From the NCBI RefSeq assembly GCF_005869855.1, contig NZ_SZNH01000014.1, positions 127,042 through 162,248 on the forward strand: a DNA stretch of 35,207 bases. The letters run 5' to 3'. The notes under the pieces are model-generated. The model made no database searches. It was given only the letters and a program-made list of their open reading frames with translations, and was not told the origin of the DNA. The stretch comes from Nostoc sp. PA-18-2419. GTDB lineage: Bacteria; Cyanobacteriota; Cyanobacteriia; Cyanobacteriales; Nostocaceae. Shown here in pieces: positions 22,636 through 32,352 of this stretch (position 1 is the stretch's first letter; the number at the start of each line of letters is the position of its first letter). The translations under genes and the position numbers were made by a program.

Positions 22636-24102
22636 CTAACTTTTAACTTCTAACTTTTGCTGATTACTGCTAACTTCTAAAGGAAGAAAAATCGTTAATA
22701 TTTCTCCATAATGTGGGCGCTGACGCACAATTAGTTTGCCGCCGATCGCCTGAAACAAATGTTTGGTTGCCGCCATATTCAAACTAATCGTACCTGTTTC
22801 TGGTTGGAACATCAGCAGTTGACCAAGGGCTTTGCGAATTGGCGGCGTTGCTGGTGTAGGAAATTTATTAGTATCTTTGCATAAGAATTGGGGCGATAAT
22901 TGTAACTTCAGTTGATCTCCAGCTGGAATAACTTGTACTTGAATGTGGCTACCAGCGGGTAAACTGCGAGTAAAATTCTCCATCAAACCAGTGAGTACCC
23001 GGTCTAACATACTGGGATTGCTAACTACAGTTGGCAGTTGTTGGGGTAAAACAACATTCAAAGTTAAATTCCGTCGGTGTGCTGCTTGTTCCCAACGGGG
23101 AATGCTTTGTTGCAACACTTGATCTAAACACATGGGTGTGAGTTGAGTTTTTGAGGATTTTACTGAGGTAGCAGTTTCCAGTTCTGCTGCTTTAAACAGT
23201 AACTCCATACGGTCAATTTGCTCGCTACACTCACGATCAATAATTTCTAAGCGATCAATTACACTTGGGGCTAAGTCTCGCCGCTTCAACAGTAGACGCG
23301 TCATGGTGCGAATAGTTGTCAAAGGTGTACGAACTTCGTGGGCAAAGGCCTGGAGTAACTCAACATCAGGATTGTGCATTGGGCATGAGTTATTTTCTCT
23401 GTCCTCCTTGTTGCCACTCTCTAGTAAAGAGTCCCTAGTTTCTTCTGGTTGTGTTAATTCCTGAAGCAACAGCTGGCTAAACTGAACCACGATCCGGGAA
23501 TCTAGCGCTACTGGTGAATACTGTTGTACTAATTCATCCAGTTGGGTAAAAAATTCTGGATCGTTGAGGATTACCCGTGCTCCTAGCGATCGCCAAGCTT
23601 GCTGTACTACTTCTGGTTCAAAAGAAAATGAAAAGGTTTTTTTACCATTATTATGTGTTGCTAAAACTAATACTAATGTAAATTTATCTGTAAAAACTAA
23701 GCAAAACTGTTCTGCTGCCAGCGGATCGGCAGGTAGTAAGGGAAGTACCGATTCACCAGCAGCGATTTCATCATCATCAGGTACGTTGGTGTAGCCCGGT
23801 ACAGGCATCGCATCTGGCATCTGAAACGGCATCAGCGCTAAAGGGTTAAATGGTTTTGCACTAAAAGTAACTGTTTGTAAGCTTTGAGTCAGTTTTGGCT
23901 GACTAAATAAGGGCGCTGGTGCAGCTAAAACTAATCCTTGGGTTGTGTCACCTGAAACAGTTGCTAAAGTATTTAATAGTAACTGTTGTGTTGCTGCGAG
24001 GCTGACACGCCACTGGCGCTCTGCTTTAGCTGGTGATTCAGCCACACTTGATTGATTTTGTGCCAAGATTTCCAAAAGACTTGGCAATATCCATTGGTAC
24101 AC
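22636..24102 (-). CDS. Histidine-kinase-like protein with degenerate ATPase domain
   Basis: 488 residues. The N-terminal 240 residues form an unrecognised sensor region, rich in Pro and hydrophobic residues, without clear membrane helices. The H-box is intact: FAHEVRTPLTTIRTM with His255. The ATPase domain keeps a possible N-box Asn376 (GLMENF), but the G1 DxGxG motif is absent (the place reads SPQFLCKD) and the G2 GxGxG is replaced by GTISLN; only the end (IGGKLIVRQRPHYGEILTIFLPLE) looks normal. It should offer a histidine but probably cannot bind ATP by itself. The start is the ATG at 24102. It is convergent to the kinase-like gene that lacks the histidine. Confidence 0.85.
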   Translation of the reverse strand: MYQWILPSLLEILAQNQSSVAESPAKAERQWRVSLAATQQLLLNTLATVSGDTTQGLVLAAPAPLFSQPKLTQSLQTVTFSAKPFNPLALMPFQMPDAMPVPGYTNVPDDDEIAAGESVLPLLPADPLAAEQFCLVFTDKFTLVLVLATHNNGKKTFSFSFEPEVVQQAWRSLGARVILNDPEFFTQLDELVQQYSPVALDSRIVVQFSQLLLQELTQPEETRDSLLESGNKEDRENNSCPMHNPDVELLQAFAHEVRTPLTTIRTMTRLLLKRRDLAPSVIDRLEIIDRECSEQIDRMELLFKAAELETATSVKSSKTQLTPMCLDQVLQQSIPRWEQAAHRRNLTLNVVLPQQLPTVVSNPSMLDRVLTGLMENFTRSLPAGSHIQVQVIPAGDQLKLQLSPQFLCKDTNKFPTPATPPIRKALGQLLMFQPETGTISLNMAATKHLFQAIGGKLIVRQRPHYGEILTIFLPLEVSSNQQKLEVKS

Positions 24103-24606
24103 AGGTTTTCACCCCTTAATTCCAGAGCGACTAACAGCGTCTAAAGTAGACATCTCACTACTACTTAAAAGGTTATAGTTATTTGTGTACTGGTGACAGT
24201 CGTAGAACCGAACAATTTGGGTGCAATTTCCTCTGTGATTAACGCCGTAACGCATCCTACAAAATTGGTGATTTTTTAATTAGAAATCCTATGGAGAGCG
24301 ATCGCTTTTTAATTGTGGTGAATTAAAGAGCGTTCGCCTTTATGAGTACCCAGAGTGCGATCGCCCTAGCATCGTAGACAACTTACAATATGAAGATGTC
24401 AGCTAAAGACCTCTATCACGATACAGTCAACAGGACTTACGCAACTGGCACACCACGAGCGCTAGTCAGTAGTACATAAGTATTTATTTACTGAGAATGT
24501 GTTTGATTGGCTTGACTCAAATTAGTAATAATAATTAATCATGTATCTTCTTGTTCAAAATTTTATAATAAAATTGATATAAGGTGCATAAAAAAGTTGG
24601 TTAGTG
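24103..24606. other. Intergenic region upstream of the minus-strand kinase-like gene
   Basis: It contains several HIP1 sites (about 24299 and 24358), an AGGACTTACGCAACTG word at about 24432 that resembles ends of Nostoc insertion sequences, and AT-rich DNA. No gene or clear promoter is seen. Confidence 0.4.
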
Positions 24607-24867
24607 ATGAGATTTACTAAACTTAATTATTCTCAATATTTACTAAGCAGCCAAATTAACTATACAATGACTAATTTAGCAGAACACTTATAAAGTATTA
24701 GTCATGATAAAATTAATTAATATTTAAAGAATGAAAAATTAACTCCTCGTTTACTTTGTGATAATGTCAAAGATTTAATTGCCCCTGACGAGGATGCTTA
24801 TATTATATTTGATGATACAGTTTTAGATAAAAGATTTTCTGAGGAAATAGAAAAAGTTTTAGCATAA
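24607..24867 (+). pseudogene. IS701-type transposase remnant
   Basis: Read from the ATG at 24607, the sequence has in-frame stops at 24691 and 24718 and ends at 24865-24867. The translation matches the N-terminus of a transposase common in Nostoc (KLNYSQYLLSSQINYT; YLKNEKLTPRLL; DNVKDLIAPDEDAYIIFDD with the first catalytic Asp region; VLDKRFSEEIE). Everything after about 85 codons is missing. It lies directly upstream of the EACC1/caspase operon and may mark how that region was acquired or broken. Confidence 0.8.
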
Positions 24868-24928
24868 GGTTTTATACTTATATTTTAAAAAATACATATA
24901 ATTTTATACTGACTTGCTCCTGACAACT

Positions 24929-25306
24929 ATGAATACAAGTTCCAATATCAAGTTAACGATCGCCTTCAACGACCCTGACTTAGAACCTGAAGAACAAGAT
25001 GAGCAGGTTCAACGGCTAATGACAGAACTCAAACAAATAGACGAGGTATATGCAGTTGGTCGTGTTCTTGATCCCAACCCACCAGAAGGTAACAAAGCAT
25101 TAGGCGGGTTTCTGGTAGGTCTGTTAATGGCTGAGGTGAATGCTGCCAACGCGAAAAAGTTGATGGGATTTCTGGGCGATCGCCTCGGTGGGAAACCAAT
25201 TGAACTGGCGGTGGAAGCCAACGGCAAAAAACTTACAGTAAAAGCTGACAGTCGAGAAGAGCTGGAAGCAGCCATCAAAGCAGCCCAAGATTTTATCTCA
25301 GGATAG
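24929..25306 (+). CDS. EACC1-like small protein of a conflict system
   Basis: 125 residues from the ATG at 24929 (a TTG at 24914 is possible). The pattern fits the effector-associated constant component 1 (EACC1) family as I remember it: an N-terminal strand (KLTIAFNDP), a helix (EEQDEQVQRLMTELKQ), a short strand (VYAVGRVL), a small central helix with Gly-rich turn (ALGGFLVGLLMAEV), then KKLMGFLGDRLGGK and two C-terminal strands (IELAVEANGKKLTVKA) plus helix. EACC1 proteins are reported next to variable effectors such as caspase- or trypsin-type proteases in NTP-dependent conflict systems. Here a caspase gene begins 10 nt after its stop. The family name is inferred from memory; a search is needed to confirm it. 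Confidence 0.75.
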   Translation: MNTSSNIKLTIAFNDPDLEPEEQDEQVQRLMTELKQIDEVYAVGRVLDPNPPEGNKALGGFLVGLLMAEVNAANAKKLMGFLGDRLGGKPIELAVEANGKKLTVKADSREELEAAIKAAQDFISG

Positions 25307-25316
25307 GTAAGAAAAC

Positions 25317-26480
25317 ATGGAAAAAGTAGCTAAAGTAGCTTTGCTGATTGGGGTTAGTGAGTATGAGCCAGAGCTAAATCCATTACCTGCGGCTGTGAAA
25401 GATATTGAGGCGCTGCAACGAGTTTTGAAAGATAGGGAGATGGGAGGATTTGATGAAGTGAAAGTGCTCCCTAATCCTGACCGACAGCAAATGGAATCTG
25501 AGATTGAAACCTTGTTTTCCGGTCGAACCAAAGACGATCTGGTGTTGCTATTTTTCTCTGGGCACGGCATTAAAGATGATGCTGGTAAGCTATATTTTGC
25601 GACTCGGAACACTCGTAAGACTACTAAAGGGGAGTTGATTCGGTCAACTGCTGTACCAGCCAACTTTGTCCATGAAATCCTGAACAATAGTCGAGCCAAA
25701 CGGCAGACAATTATCTTAGACTGTTGCTATAGCGGAGCGTTTGATCCGGCATTACAAACTAAAGATGATGGCTCAATTGATTTGCAGACCCAACTGGGGG
25801 CTGAGGGGCGGGTGGTGCTTACTTCTTCTAGTTCAACCCAGTATTCCTTTGAGCAGCAGGCATCAGACTTATCAATTTACACTCGATATCTAGTTGAGGG
25901 GATTGAAACCGGAGCAGGCGATCGCAATGAGGATGGGTTTATCTCGGTGCTGGAATTGCATGAGTATGCTACCAGTAAAGTGCGGGAAACTGCACCCACG
26001 ATGACCCCAAAGATCATTGTTCTTAAAGATAAGGGGTTTGAAATCATTCTCTCTAAAGCACGAGTTTCTGACCCTCAGCTGAGATATCGAAAAGCCGCTT
26101 CACGTTATGCAAATGCCGGAACAATTCGACCATCTGCTCGTGCTGTTCTAAATACAGTGAGGCAGCAGTTAGGCTTGACCCCTGAAGAAGCTGCTGAAAT
26201 TGAAACTGAGGTATTACGCCCTTATCGAGAGCGATTAGCGAATTTACAAAACTATCGAGAAGCTCTAATTGCAGAAGCAGAGCATGAACATCCTCTAAGT
26301 GACGATGCCTGTCAAGAAATGAATATGCTTCAAAAGCTTCTAGCGTTGAGAGATGCTGATATTTTGCCAATTAAGCAAGAAGTTGAAGCGCAGTTTGCCC
26401 AGAAGTCAGAGTCATACCAACAGAATTTAGCTCAATACAAGCAGTATTTACAGAAACAATTCAACAAGAATTTCCTTTAA
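25317..26480 (+). CDS. Caspase-like (peptidase C14) protein with C-terminal repeats, cut by a frameshift
   Basis: 387 residues. The caspase p20-like domain covers about 1-240: opening [12 protein letters not shown], catalytic His83 in FFSGHG, and catalytic Cys137 in [22 protein letters not shown] stretch resembles a calcium-binding loop. From about 260 come copies of a 60-80-residue helical repeat ([34 protein letters not shown]). The last ten residues (from about 379) are out of frame: a -1 shift at the T run 26447-26449 restores the repeat ([13 protein letters not shown]) and leads into the next open frame, which carries three repeats and DnaK. The ATG at 25317 has AGGTAAG upstream and is 10 nt after the EACC1-like gene. 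Confidence 0.88.
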
Positions 26481-26509
26481 ACCAGCAAGCTCGTCAAAAC
26501 TTAGAGAAT

Positions 26510-29029
26510 TTGCAGAAGTCTTTAGGACTTAGAAATGAAGATATTACCGTTCTTGAACAACCCCTTCTTCACCAAGCACAAATCAGATATCAGCAAAAGC
26601 TCAGACAAATAGCGGAGCAAAAGCAACGGAAACAGGAACAAGCAGAGTATGAAAACAAACTCCGTAGCTACGAGCAAGAATTCGCAAAGGCAGTTCAGGC
26701 AGAATACCCATTAAGTCAAACTGCTTTGCAACGCTTGAAGACCTATCAGCAGCAATTAGGACTAAAAGATGAAGATGTTGAGCGCGCTGAGCAGCCAATT
26801 CGTGAACCAGCAGAGGTCAAGTACCAGCAAAAGCTCAGACAAATAGCGGAGCAAAAGCAACGGCAACAGGAACAGGCAGAGTATGAAAGCAAACTTCGTA
26901 GCTACGAGCAAGAATTCGCAAAGGCAGTTCAGGCAGAATACCCGTTAAGTCAAACTGCTTTACAACGCTTGAAGACCTATCAGCAGCAATTGAAACTAAA
27001 AAATGAAGATGTTGAGCGCGCTGAGCAGCCAATTCGTGAACCAGCAGAGGCCAAGTACCAACAAAAGCTTAGACAAATAGCGGAGCAAGAGCAATGGGAA
27101 CAAAAACAGGCAGAGTATGAAAATGAACTTCGTCGTACAGAACCTAGCAACAAAGCATCAATTCCTTTCACGAAGTCTTCAAAAATAGTTGGAATTGACT
27201 TAGGTACAACGAACTCCTGCGTCGCAGTCATTGAAGGTGGTAAACCCACGGTTATTGCTAATGCAGAGGGTTTTCGGACAACACCATCGGTAGTAGCGTT
27301 CGCCAAAAATGGCGATACTTTGGTAGGGCAAATCGCCAAGCGCCAAGCGGTGATGAACCCGGAAAACACCTTCTCTTCAGTTAAGCGTTTCATTGGTCAC
27401 CGCTTCGACGAAGCTACTAGTGAAGCTAGGGAAGTTTCTTATAAAGTATTGAGCAGTGGTGGTAACATCAAGCTAGATTCTCCTGGTGTTGGTAAGCAGT
27501 TTGCCCCAGAAGAAATTTCAGCTAAAGTTCTGCGTAAACTAGTTGAAGATGCTAGTAAATACCTGGGTGAAACTGTAACCCAAGCTGTAATCACAGTTCC
27601 GGCATACTTCAATAACTCCCAACGGCAAGCGACAAGAGACGCTGGTAAAATCGCAGGTATCGAAGTTCTGCGGATTATCAACGAGCCGACTGCTGCATCT
27701 GTAGCATACGGATTTTATAAAAAGAATAACGAAACTATCCTAGTATTTGACCTTGGTGGTGGTACCTTCGACGTATCTGTGTTGGAAGTAGGTGATGGCG
27801 TATTTGAAGTACTAGCTACATCCGGTGATACCCACCTTGGTGGTGACGACTTTGATAAAAAAATAGTTGACTTCTTAGCTGAAAAGTTCAAGAAAGACAA
27901 AGGCATCGACCTACGCAAAGATAAACAAGCCTTACAACGTTTGACAGAAGCCGCAGAAAAAGCCAAGATTGAGCTTTCTAGCGTTACCGAAGCGGAAATT
28001 AATCTGCCATTCATCACCGCTACCCAGGATGGGCCGAAGCACCTGGATACTACTCTCACCCGCGCTAAATTCGAAGAACTCTGCTCAGACTTAATCAACC
28101 GTTGTCGCGTTCCTCTAGAAAATGCTCTTAGAGATGCGAAGTTAAACAAGAACGATATCGATGAAGTTGTACTAATAGGTGGTTCTACCCGAATTCCTGC
28201 CGTTCAAAATTTAGTCAAGCGGTTGTTAGGTAAAGAACCTAACCAAAGCGTTAACCCTGATGAAGTGGTAGTTCTTGGTGCAGCAATCCATGCAGGGGTA
28301 TCTAGTGGTGAAATTACTGGTATAGTGCTATTAGATGTAACACCACTTAGTCTAGGTGTAGAAACCTTGGGTGGTGTGATGACCAAAATTATCTCCCGCA
28401 ACACCACAGTTCCAAACAAGAAATCTGAAATATTCTCCACTGCCGTGGATGGTCAAACCAACGTAGAAATTCACGTACTCCAAGGTGAGCGGGAACTTGC
28501 TAACGATAACAAGAGTTTGGGAACCTTCCGCCTTGATGGTATTCCCCCTGCACCACGCGGTGTTCCGCAAATTGAAGTGGTGTTCAACGTTGACCCCAAC
28601 GGTATCCTCAACGTCACCGCCAAGGACAAAGTTACTGGTAAAGAACAGTCCATCAGCATAACTGGTGCTTCTACACTAGATAAATCTGATATTGATCGGA
28701 TGGTAAGAGAAGCCGAACAAAATGCTTCTGCTGACAAGGAACGTCGTGAGAAGATTGAACGCGAGAACCAAGCTAACTCTCTGGCGTATCAAGCCGAGAA
28801 ACTGTTGCAAGACTTGGGTAATAAAGTTCCTGCTGCTGACAAGAGTAAAATCGAAGGTTTGGTGAAAGAGCTGCGTAATGCTATCTCTAAAAAATACTAC
28901 GAGCAGATCAAGAAGCTGATACCAGAATTGCAACAAGCACTATTCGCAGTTGGTAGCAACATCTATCAACAAGCTGGTGGCGGTTATGATGTAATTGACG
29001 CTGATTTTAGAAATTATAATAGTAGATGA
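26510..29029 (+). CDS. Repeat-DnaK (Hsp70) fusion, likely 3' part of a caspase-Hsp70 gene
   Basis: Up to 839 residues. The open frame extends upstream to about 26447; the TTG at 26510 is the first plausible start but has no good ribosome binding site. The first ATG codon in frame is at 27353, already inside the DnaK ATPase domain, so this is most likely the continuation of the caspase gene. Residues 1-215 hold three helical repeats ([35 protein letters not shown]). DnaK follows without its own start: phosphate-1 GIDLGTTNS, phosphate-2 [17 protein letters not shown], linker [11 protein letters not shown], substrate-binding domain and lid. The motifs are intact. The C-terminal tail is shortened and altered (DVIDADF then NYNSR) by a 40-bp duplication. 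Confidence 0.85.
26645..27112 (+). repeat. Two tandem 234-bp direct repeats
   Basis: Unit 1 (26645-26878) and unit 2 (26879-27112) are nearly identical and encode 78 residues each; the start of a third unit follows at 27113. Older, diverged copies lie upstream in the caspase gene. The near identity points to a recent duplication or ongoing homogenisation. Confidence 0.9.
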
Positions 29030-29047
29030 TGTAATTGACGCTGATTT
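28986..29047 (+). repeat. 22-bp direct repeat with 40-bp period at the end of the DnaK fusion
   Basis: The stretch encoding D-V-I-D-A-D-F occurs at 28986-29007 and again at 29026-29047. The second copy continues into the normal DnaK ending (T-E-S-K, stop) but lies in another frame behind the new stop codon. A small tandem duplication with extra bases therefore changed the C-terminus. Confidence 0.85.
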
Positions 29048-29165
29048 CACCGAATCAAAGTGATATCGTTTCGGGTTTTCATCATCCCACTAAACGAACT
29101 TTAACAGAATTTACTACTGCTTAATTTTTCAGTAGATTAGCAATAGACTATCTTAATAACACTTT

Positions 29166-29987
29166 ATGACTTCTTTAGAAGCGTCAGTTGAGGATTTAGT
29201 GCTAGTTGCTGGTGCTACTGGTGGAGTAGGGCAACTGGTAGTAGGCAAGCTGCTAGAAAAAGGTTTTAGAGTTCGTGTCCTGACACGCAATGCCGCAAAA
29301 GCTCAACAAATGTTTAATCAGCAAGTGGAAATTGTTGTTGGTGATACCCGCCAGCCCGCTACACTTCCAGCCGCAACATCAGATGTCACCCAAATTATAT
29401 GTTGTACCGGAACCACAGCCTTTCCCTCTGCCAGATGGGAGTTTGAGCAACCCCCGAACTTGATTGAATGGGGAATAATTTTTCTTAATCCCCAATTTAG
29501 TCAAGCAAAAGCAAAAAATAGTCCAGCTCAAATCGATGCCCAAGGTGTTAGCAACCTTGTAGCAGCAGCACCTAAGAATTTGCAGCGATTTATTTTCGTC
29601 TCCTCCTGCGGAATTCTCCGTAAAAATCAGTTTCCTTTTAGCGTTCTCAATGCATTCGGCGTTTTGGATGCCAAACATAAGGGTGAGGAATCGATTGTTG
29701 ATTCAAGATTACCCTACACTATTATCCGCCCAGGACGCCTCATTGACGGGCCTTATACTTCATATGACCTCAATACCCTCCTGAAGGCAAAAACACAGGG
29801 CAAATACGGTGTGGTGCTTGGCACAGGTGATACACTTTCAGGTGATGCTAGCCGGATTGATGTCGCAAACGCTTGTGTAGAATCTCTTTTTTACCCAAGG
29901 AGTTCCAGAAAAATTTTTGAAATAGTTAATAAGGGAGAAAGACCGCCTGTTATTGACTGGGAAACTCTTTTTACTGGGCTGGAGTGA
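29166..29987 (+). CDS. NAD(P)-binding atypical SDR family protein
   Basis: 273 residues with a Rossmann fold. The dinucleotide motif is G16-A-T-G-G-V-G22, followed by VRVLTRN and VVGD segments typical of atypical (NmrA/SDR_a5-like) short-chain dehydrogenases found in cyanobacteria and plastids. IICCTGTTAFPS and FVSSCGIL mark later strands; the classical YxxxK is not in its usual form. Substrate and reaction are unknown. The start is the ATG at 29166. It lies between the DnaK fusion and the normal dnaK, on the same strand, with about 135 nt before it and no sign of functional connection. Confidence 0.85.
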   Translation: MTSLEASVEDLVLVAGATGGVGQLVVGKLLEKGFRVRVLTRNAAKAQQMFNQQVEIVVGDTRQPATLPAATSDVTQIICCTGTTAFPSARWEFEQPPNLIEWGIIFLNPQFSQAKAKNSPAQIDAQGVSNLVAAAPKNLQRFIFVSSCGILRKNQFPFSVLNAFGVLDAKHKGEESIVDSRLPYTIIRPGRLIDGPYTSYDLNTLLKAKTQGKYGVVLGTGDTLSGDASRIDVANACVESLFYPRSSRKIFEIVNKGERPPVIDWETLFTGLE

Positions 29988-30450: not shown

Positions 30451-32352
30451 ATGGCAAAAGTAGTTGGAATTGACTTAGGTACAACGAACTCCTGCGTAGC
30501 AGTGATGGAAGGTGGTAAACCCACAGTTATTGCTAATGCAGAAGGTTTTCGGACAACACCATCAGTGGTTGCATTTGCTAAAAATGGTGATCGCTTGGTT
30601 GGTCAAATCGCCAAACGTCAAGCGGTAATGAACCCCGAAAATACGTTTTACTCTGTCAAGCGCTTTATTGGACGCCGCTTTGACGAAGTTACCAAGGAGA
30701 CGACTGAAGTTTCTTATAAAGTCCTGAGTAGCGGCGGCAATGTCAAGCTAGACTCTCCAGGCGCTGGTAAGCAATTTGCTCCAGAAGAAATTTCTGCACA
30801 AGTTCTCCGCAAACTGGTTGAAGACGCTAGCAAATACTTGGGTGAAACTGTAACCCAAGCTGTAATCACTGTCCCAGCATACTTCAATGACTCCCAACGG
30901 CAAGCAACCAAAGATGCTGGGAAAATAGCAGGTATTGAAGTTCTACGGATTATCAACGAACCTACAGCCGCTTCTCTGGCATACGGCTTTGATAAAAAGA
31001 GCAACGAAACAATTCTGGTATTTGACCTTGGTGGTGGTACTTTCGACGTATCCGTGCTGGAAGTTGGCGATGGAGTTTTTGAAGTATTAGCTACATCCGG
31101 TGATACCCACCTTGGTGGTGACGACTTTGATAAAAAAATAGTTGACTTCTTAGCTGAAAAGTTCAAGAAAGACGAAGGCATCGATCTACGCAAAGATAAA
31201 CAAGCTTTACAACGTTTGACTGAAGCCGCAGAGAAAGCGAAAATTGAACTTTCTAGCGTCACCCAAGCAGAAATCAACTTACCATTTATTACTGCTACTC
31301 AGGATGGGCCTAAGCACCTAGATACAACCCTGACTCGCGCTAAATTTGAAGAACTTTGCTCTGACTTAATCGACCGTTGCCGGATCCCTGTGGAAAACGC
31401 TCTCCGGGATGCCAAGTTAAGCAAGAACGATATTGATGAAGTCGTATTAGTTGGTGGTTCTACCCGCATTCCCGCAGTACAACAAATTGTCAAGCAGGTA
31501 TTGGGTAAAGATCCTAACCAAAGCGTTAACCCTGATGAAGTTGTGGCAGTAGGTGCAGCAATTCAAGCTGGGGTCTTGGCTGGTGATGTTACTGGCATCT
31601 TGCTGTTAGATGTGACACCGCTATCTTTGGGTGTTGAAACATTGGGTGGCGTGATGACCAAAATTATCCCCCGCAACACCACAATTCCCACCAAGAAATC
31701 TGAAGTGTTCTCCACCGCTGTGGATGGTCAAACCAACGTAGAAATTCACGTCCTCCAAGGCGAACGCGAATTTTCTAACGATAACAAGAGTTTAGGAACC
31801 TTCCGCCTCGATGGCATTCCTCCTGCACCACGTGGTGTTCCCCAAATTGAAGTCGTGTTCGACATTGACGCCAACGGTATCCTCAATGTCACCGCTAAGG
31901 ACAAAGGTACTGGTAAAGAACAGTCCATCAGCATAACCGGCGCTTCCACCCTCGATAAAACTGACGTTGACCGGATGGTGAGAGAAGCTGAACAAAACGC
32001 CTCAAGTGACAAGGAACGGCGTGAGAAGATTGAACGCAAGAACCAAGCCGATTCTTTGGCATACCAAGCTGAGAAACAGCTACAAGAATTGGGTGATAAA
32101 GTTCCTGCTGCTGACAAGACCAAAGTTGAAGGTTTGGTAAAAGAACTGCGGGAAGCGATCGCTAAAGATGACGATGAACAAATCAAGAAGCTGACCCCAG
32201 AATTGCAACAAGCATTATTTGCCGTAGGTAGCAACATCTATCAACAAGCGGGTGGCGGTGCTGCACCTGGCGCTGAACCTCAAGATGGCAGTTCCTCCAC
32301 TGCTGGCACAGGTGATGATGTGATTGACGCTGATTTTACAGAAAGCAAATAA
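30451..32352 (+). CDS. dnaK: Molecular chaperone DnaK (Hsp70)
   Basis: 633 residues from the ATG at 30451 ([15 protein letters not shown]), with GGAG 12 nt upstream; the open frame reaches further up but that part is not DnaK sequence. The full domain set is present: ATPase domain with [19 protein letters not shown] and GGSTRIP, linker [10 protein letters not shown], substrate-binding beta domain, helical lid, and the C-terminal [10 protein letters not shown]. It folds and remodels proteins with DnaJ and GrpE, neither of which is in this window. It is very similar to the DnaK part of the fusion 1.4 kb upstream, so one derives from the other. The transcript ends at a strong terminator. Confidence 0.97.

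Follow-up and report, generated by a model that had tools for sequence, protein, structure and literature searches.

The stretch of 35,207 nucleotides analysed here (the window) is part of contig 18 of the 7.6-Mb draft genome of Nostoc sp. PA-18-2419 (106 contigs). Packed into 4.1 kb of it are an EACC1-like gene and a caspase, followed by helical repeats of 234 nt and a DnaK that is almost complete, with a single frame break lying within the repeats. We read this locus, with a probability of roughly 0.6, as a conflict-type two-gene cassette of EACC1 and caspase that was inserted at this site, the exchangeable C-terminal slot of which captured the almost complete DnaK as an input module. A slot for a sensor or effector has most likely taken in a whole chaperone, the fused gene of the window being a rare form, perhaps a damaged one, within an already known type of bacterial conflict system. 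The two-gene system itself is known, since System 4 of Kaur et al. 2020 (PMC7159879) is an EACC1-caspase pair whose caspase bears a C-terminal module that can be exchanged, and what seems to be new is DnaK as the module; the view of the initial annotation that the architecture is undescribed would thus hold for the module and not for the pair. Our reading builds on the directly observed gene order, caspase family, repeat joint, stalk, insertion and differences of the slot between close relatives, and it is plausible, as a hypothesis, that the chaperone would control the protease.

The EACC1-like gene and the caspase

The 5′ gene of the cassette (24929..25306, + strand) encodes a protein of 125 residues and is separated by 10 nt from the open reading frame (ORF) of the caspase (25317..26480, + strand), which comprises the caspase domain (residues 1-250) and the first helical repeats, and ends past the frame break. 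An EACC1-associated peptidase of the caspase superfamily occupies the N-terminus of this 3′ gene, with matches to NCBIfam NF047832 (caspase_w_EACC1, 'caspase, EACC1-associated type'; 174.6 bits, cut-off 140) and PF00656 (84.4 bits, cut-off 21.4), and with the catalytic pair His83 and Cys137 lying in columns that are invariant across 40 aligned rows, that of the window included. The ORFs, the two profile matches and the alignment confirm the initial annotation of an EACC1-like gene followed at this spacing by a caspase with these two residues. The AlphaFold2 model of the caspase ORF (predicted local distance difference test, pLDDT, 85.2) consists of a caspase domain and, beyond residue 253, a stalk of alternating short and long helices, with MALT1 paracaspase, caspase-7 and metacaspases among its Foldseek matches in the PDB. 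A caspase 58% identical to that of the window is encoded on a plasmid of Nostoc sp. C057 (NZ_CP040294.1, 25454-26521), the best of 131 matching plasmid records, and the caspase family can therefore travel on plasmids.

The small protein is assigned from its position upstream of the caspase and from a match to the EACC1 profile PF19953 that is nearly full-length (positions 3-104 of 107) and weak (16.8 bits, under the cut-off of 23.6). Of 40 rows, 15 match the profile at E ≤ 0.1 (best 3.9e-5), and 32 of 55 named loci have a homologue immediately 5′ to the caspase, 31 of them at a distance of 6-30 nt. Kaur et al. (PMC7159879) attribute to EACC1 one conserved transmembrane helix that bears a patch of small residues. 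The protein of the window has a hydrophobic patch with glycines (ALGGFLVGLL) and no hydrophobic stretch of membrane length, its best 19-residue mean hydropathy being 1.35, with 1.6 reached in none of the 40 rows; it is therefore filed as EACC1-like rather than EACC1, and differs from System 4 both in this and in its score under the Pfam cut-off. In its model, alpha/beta elements are present and a long helix is absent, at a pLDDT of just 71.8 that falls below 50 at residues 57-63, and no PDB fold was matched at E ≤ 0.001, the best being the putative dioxygenase 2nyh (E = 0.024). Additionally, at L026 (G000:C15), L121 and L177 the match to the EACC1-like partner is divided in two and its first piece ends early, so that this gene looks broken, with the caspase frame open.

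The C-terminal slot and its DnaK

The caspase of the window belongs to a clade of 13 (Shimodaira-Hasegawa-like approximate likelihood ratio test, SH-aLRT, 100) in which the C-terminal modules are diverse and exchangeable, and only the window's member holds DnaK. The slot contains TPR in L095, GUN4 in L097, TPR and GUN4 in L103, FGE-sulfatase in L100 and L101, and EAD9 in L098, the last below the cut-off (23.4 bits, cut-off 25). In the unbroken gene L096, from Nostoc sp. WHI, it contains DnaJ_C (29.4 bits, cut-off 26.6) with TPR, and in L099, from the Peltigera cyanobiont, a fragment of the DnaJ zinc finger that scores below the cut-off (22.3 bits, cut-off 32.7), bringing the members with parts of DnaK or DnaJ to three of 13, one of them below the cut-off. 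No domain was found in the slot of L104, L064 is broken, and L063 was not scanned singly. The caspase parts of the GUN4-bearing L097 and the zinc-finger-bearing L099 are nearly identical (branches of 0.019 and 0.0077). A further slot, in Pseudanabaena sp. ULC068bin1 (L102:10001-11563), carries two ribosomal L7/L12 C-terminal domains (PF00542, 124.4 bits).

Across 58 members scanned, Peripla_BP_6 was found in 10, GUN4 in 8, EAL in 8 and TPR_1 in 6. A scan of 84 caspase ORFs for DnaJ and DnaK, with duplicate fetches included and the window's own excluded, detected DnaJ_C in L115 and in L096 (fetched a second time as L060). The zinc finger was detected in L099 (fetched a second time as L061), and DnaK in none. 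A TIR protein of the same genome (L029:1630-3549, G000:C28) has DnaJ_C (38.7 bits, cut-off 26.6) and TPR, with one copy of the helical repeat recognised by eye, and so places a chaperone-derived part in another executor protein. We tentatively raise, as a rather doubtful extension, that EACC1-type caspases of filamentous cyanobacteria may repeatedly take up Hsp70/Hsp40 parts (DnaK, the client-binding domain of DnaJ and the DnaJ zinc finger) as built-in decoys of the chaperone machinery of the cell itself, with the death protease reading folding load or the capture of chaperones by viruses.

The module in the window (27184..29028, + strand) begins shortly past the DnaK start and closes with a short altered tail, at which two identical 22-nt copies lie 40 nt apart (28986..29047, + strand; repeat family D4). 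As the initial annotation had proposed, it is an almost complete DnaK with intact nucleotide motifs and linker, covering positions 1-599 of 599 of the HSP70 profile PF00012 (854.9 bits), scoring 950.4 bits against TIGR02350 (cut-off 822.55), and retaining eight motifs of the nucleotide site and linker within a full nucleotide-binding domain, linker and substrate-binding domain.

The junction of the repeats and DnaK was sought in 534 different genomes (217 of the family with the repeat-DnaK part, scoring four candidates per genome, and 388 sampled from the order with the junction), and among the matches listed only the genome of the window has a match running through it; the claim of a caspase-Hsp70 fusion is supported, with no second case among these matches. 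The junction rows checked were four, the rows with internal stops (G428, G231, G350) having been left out. All four, of which two start ahead of the DnaK start (G407, G341) and two have long frames (G453, G269), proved to be ordinary dnaK genes preceded by an open leader, none with a repeat or caspase match. No caspase-Hsp70 fusion was found in the passages of the literature consulted, figures and supplements aside, and DnaK is unnamed in section 33 of Kaur et al. (PMC7159879), whose list of up to 50 modules was only partly compared.

Frame break, insertion and origin of the DnaK

The second frame, open between 26387 and 29026, overlaps the caspase frame over 91 nt (26387..26477, + strand), within which the break lies, with helical repeats in tandem units of 234 nt, or 78 codons, extending in this frame over 26441..27183 (+ strand). 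The units begin at 26554, 26788 and 27022, and the third is matched across 112 nt at 77%; over 26554-27133 they are exactly 234 nt long, the first two being 90% identical, which points to a recent in-frame expansion. A resemblance of the repeats to Tic110 was rejected, with scores under the cut-off. The helical repeat is present on either side of the break, and the near relatives L095, L096 and L098 read in one frame through the stretch that matches it (L097 lacks this stretch and L099 ends ahead of it), supporting the proposal of the initial annotation that caspase, repeats and DnaK were a single ancestral gene. The DnaK part was most likely read from upstream while that gene was unbroken, because its frame has no ATG at the DnaK start, the first ATG past 26387 being at 27353, within DnaK, and none of the few TTG codons before 27353 has a flagged Shine-Dalgarno-like motif. 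The notion of a protease and a chaperone in one polypeptide therefore stands for the ancestral gene and fails for the recorded sequence, which stops inside the repeats and, barring sequencing error, would yield no more than a caspase with a truncated stalk, uncoupled by the break from DnaK.

The fusion most likely suffered a later mutation that broke it, or else was misread in sequencing. The second of these, a sequencing or assembly error in a protein that is intact today, is possible if doubtful, as it agrees with the many contigs of the draft, the single change of frame and the uninterrupted reading of the three near relatives, but not with lesions in other members of the family, one of them in the same genome. 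Programmed frameshifting would exploit the overlap that is open in both frames; however, neither a canonical -1 slippery heptamer nor a long homopolymer occurs in these 91 nt, and the three relatives read through in one frame, so that this explanation was dismissed as highly improbable. The lesion in the same genome is an in-frame TAA in a second EACC1-caspase (L025, G000:C31; ~317.2-318.3 kb of its contig), inside the repeats and ahead of a TPR part, and two of the four close caspase genes of this genome are therefore cut between caspase and C-terminal module. The TAA is not a conserved feature of the paralogous caspase, since none of 20 translated loci has a stop there and the C31 copy alone has one. 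Two-frame matches are also given by the closely related caspase genes L064 (G050) and L143.

The cassette is an insertion at this site, because the nearest relative, G048, has the site empty (L150): alignable DNA ends at 24236 and restarts at 29119, and a spacer of 186 bp replaces the 4.9 kb of the window between flanks of ~94% DNA identity, with the kinase-like gene, the NAD(P)-binding gene and dnaK following in succession. The ends of the inserted cassette lie at approximately 24366..29121 (no strand assigned), refined by eye from the printed flanks, and the flanking genes are the histidine-kinase-like gene (22636-24102, - strand) and the NAD(P)-binding gene (29166-29987, + strand). Inside the cassette, a degraded remnant of a transposase-like gene (24431..24851, + strand) is 70-72% identical at the DNA level to two further sites in the genome, one of which has an ORF of 322 residues that is presumably a transposase, as a candidate only. 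The flank gene order recurs without the cassette in G001, G010 and G028, and the stretch fetched from G024 has the NAD(P)-binding gene and dnaK, likewise without it; no EACC1, caspase or repeat match was found in the fetched dnaK regions of these four, and the gene order of the window, which the initial annotation proposed to look for in other Nostocales, was not found in the five relatives examined. In G028 a related EACC1-caspase with TPR is located elsewhere (L059).

The canonical resident dnaK (30451..32352, + strand; TIGR02350 and PRK00290 above cut-off) lies outside the cassette, 1.4 kb downstream of the fused DnaK, and is 99.4% identical to the G048 orthologue in the same gene order. 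The fused and resident genes share 85% DNA identity and 89% amino acid identity over 602 residues, with 67 amino acid differences in 611 columns. The nonsynonymous (dN) and synonymous (dS) divergences between them are 0.059 and 0.715, giving a dN/dS of 0.083, compared with 0.011-0.040 for the resident dnaK against 30 orthologues; we read this as a chaperone still constrained that has probably departed from the ordinary dnaK role. The rows closest to the fused DnaK in the tree come from the dnaK of a different genus (G067, G068, G071), at a modest support of 82/75, and with an outgroup included its position is not resolved. A stretch of 86 nt is identical between the fused (27813-27898) and resident (~31088-31173) genes against the 85% background, and hints at possible gene conversion.

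A recent tandem duplication of the adjacent dnaK, fused to the caspase on the spot, would account for the proximity, the DNA identity and the identical patch of the two genes. It is nonetheless quite improbable, with a recent copy of the neighbouring gene ruled out by the empty site of G048 and by approximately unbiased (AU) tests, which reject a sister pairing of the fused with the own dnaK (p = 4.15e-10) as well as a grouping of these two with the G048 gene (p = 5.07e-5); a placement of the fused DnaK within the whole genus is borderline (p = 0.0515). Furthermore, the dS between fused and resident genes exceeds that between the own and G048 dnaK (0.174), although relaxed codon use could inflate it.

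Proposed mechanism and related systems

In the intact protein DnaK would serve as the input module. Binding of a misfolded or foreign client, or of a J-protein, would alter the state of DnaK, and the helical stalk would pass on this change so that the caspase is clustered or released, with EACC1 helping to hold or trigger it; the caspase may then cut the stalk and proteins of the cell. DnaK as an input is favoured by the many binding parts among the other contents of the slot, and by the precedent of bNACHT25, which relies on DnaJ to sense phages. DnaK could instead be a payload, freed when an EACC1-triggered caspase cuts the stalk, a role that follows the description of the C-terminal domains as effectors deployed by auto-proteolysis in section 33 of Kaur et al. 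(PMC7159879), and that suits the enzymes in the slot, such as FGE-sulfatase and EAL. We consider this unlikely, as a cell that already has three other full-length dnaK genes would gain little from extra free DnaK, and the modules of the GUN4, TPR, DnaJ_C and periplasmic-binding types have the look of parts that bind or sense.

Several findings weigh against a captured input module. The fusion was seen in one of 534 genomes among the matches listed, giving no comparative proof that it works, and its frame is broken in the recorded sequence. No EACC1 homologue lies directly upstream in 23 of the 55 named loci, three of them near a contig edge and 20 with room for one. Of the differences from the resident dnaK, 43 affect columns that do not vary across 31 dnaK rows, and could mean lost chaperone function. 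They include N in place of D at 147, a position with a role in DnaJ contact. The dN/dS of the fused DnaK is 2-7 times the canonical values, and in being low may partly date from a time before the fusion as an ordinary dnaK elsewhere.

In a rival account, a mobile caspase gene recombined with dnaK by accident, the product was never functional and the break is decay. This remains a candidate because of the frame break and the lesions in related genes (the two-frame matches of L064 and L143, and the TAA of C31), and the single occurrence of the fusion and the presence of other housekeeping pieces in the slot, such as L12, agree with it. In contrast, a second frame open over 839 codons, the nucleotide and linker motifs, the low dN/dS and the growth of the repeats by a whole number of codons weigh against a dead product, and make an accident a lesser possibility than the capture of DnaK as an input module.

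The locus resembles System 4 (PMC7159879; NF047832) in its EACC1-like 5′ gene, its N-terminal caspase in the 3′ gene and its swappable C-terminus, and differs in having as its module an almost complete DnaK, which section 33 of PMC7159879 does not name; System 4 is prevalent in actinobacteria according to the same account, whereas the window is cyanobacterial. It likewise resembles the cyanobacterial orthocaspases, whose p20-like domain is joined to GUN4, FGE, TPR, Ribosomal_L12 and others (PMC8283722, PMC2853523, PMC7475262, PMC3501461). The main texts of the first three surveys do not mention Hsp70, DnaK or DnaJ, and PMC3501461, in which DnaJ was not looked for, mentions neither Hsp70 nor DnaK in the text seen and names Prefoldin_2 as an orthocaspase chaperone partner. 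Hsp70-type proteins also occur in bacterial conflict systems in the GTPase-centred systems with HSP70 and GrpE of Kaur et al. and in CoCoNuTs (PMC11090510), however a caspase fusion was not found in the portions of these accounts consulted, and the Hsp70-like domains of CoCoNuTs have degenerate ATPase motifs, in contrast to the DnaK of the window, which retains them. Phage sensing by bNACHT25 needs DnaJ and the coupling of DnaJ to DnaK (PMC12169576), and the proposed activation of the caspase would share this dependence on the Hsp70/Hsp40 machinery, whereas in bNACHT25 the chaperone works in trans with the NACHT protein as the sensor.

The locus is also an example of a conflict system with an exchangeable slot that admits whole housekeeping proteins. 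Plant immune receptors with integrated decoys offer a comparison. If the chaperone parts are sensors, these caspases would be a bacterial counterpart of such decoys, and would add to the finding that phages are detected by bNACHT25 by way of DnaJ.

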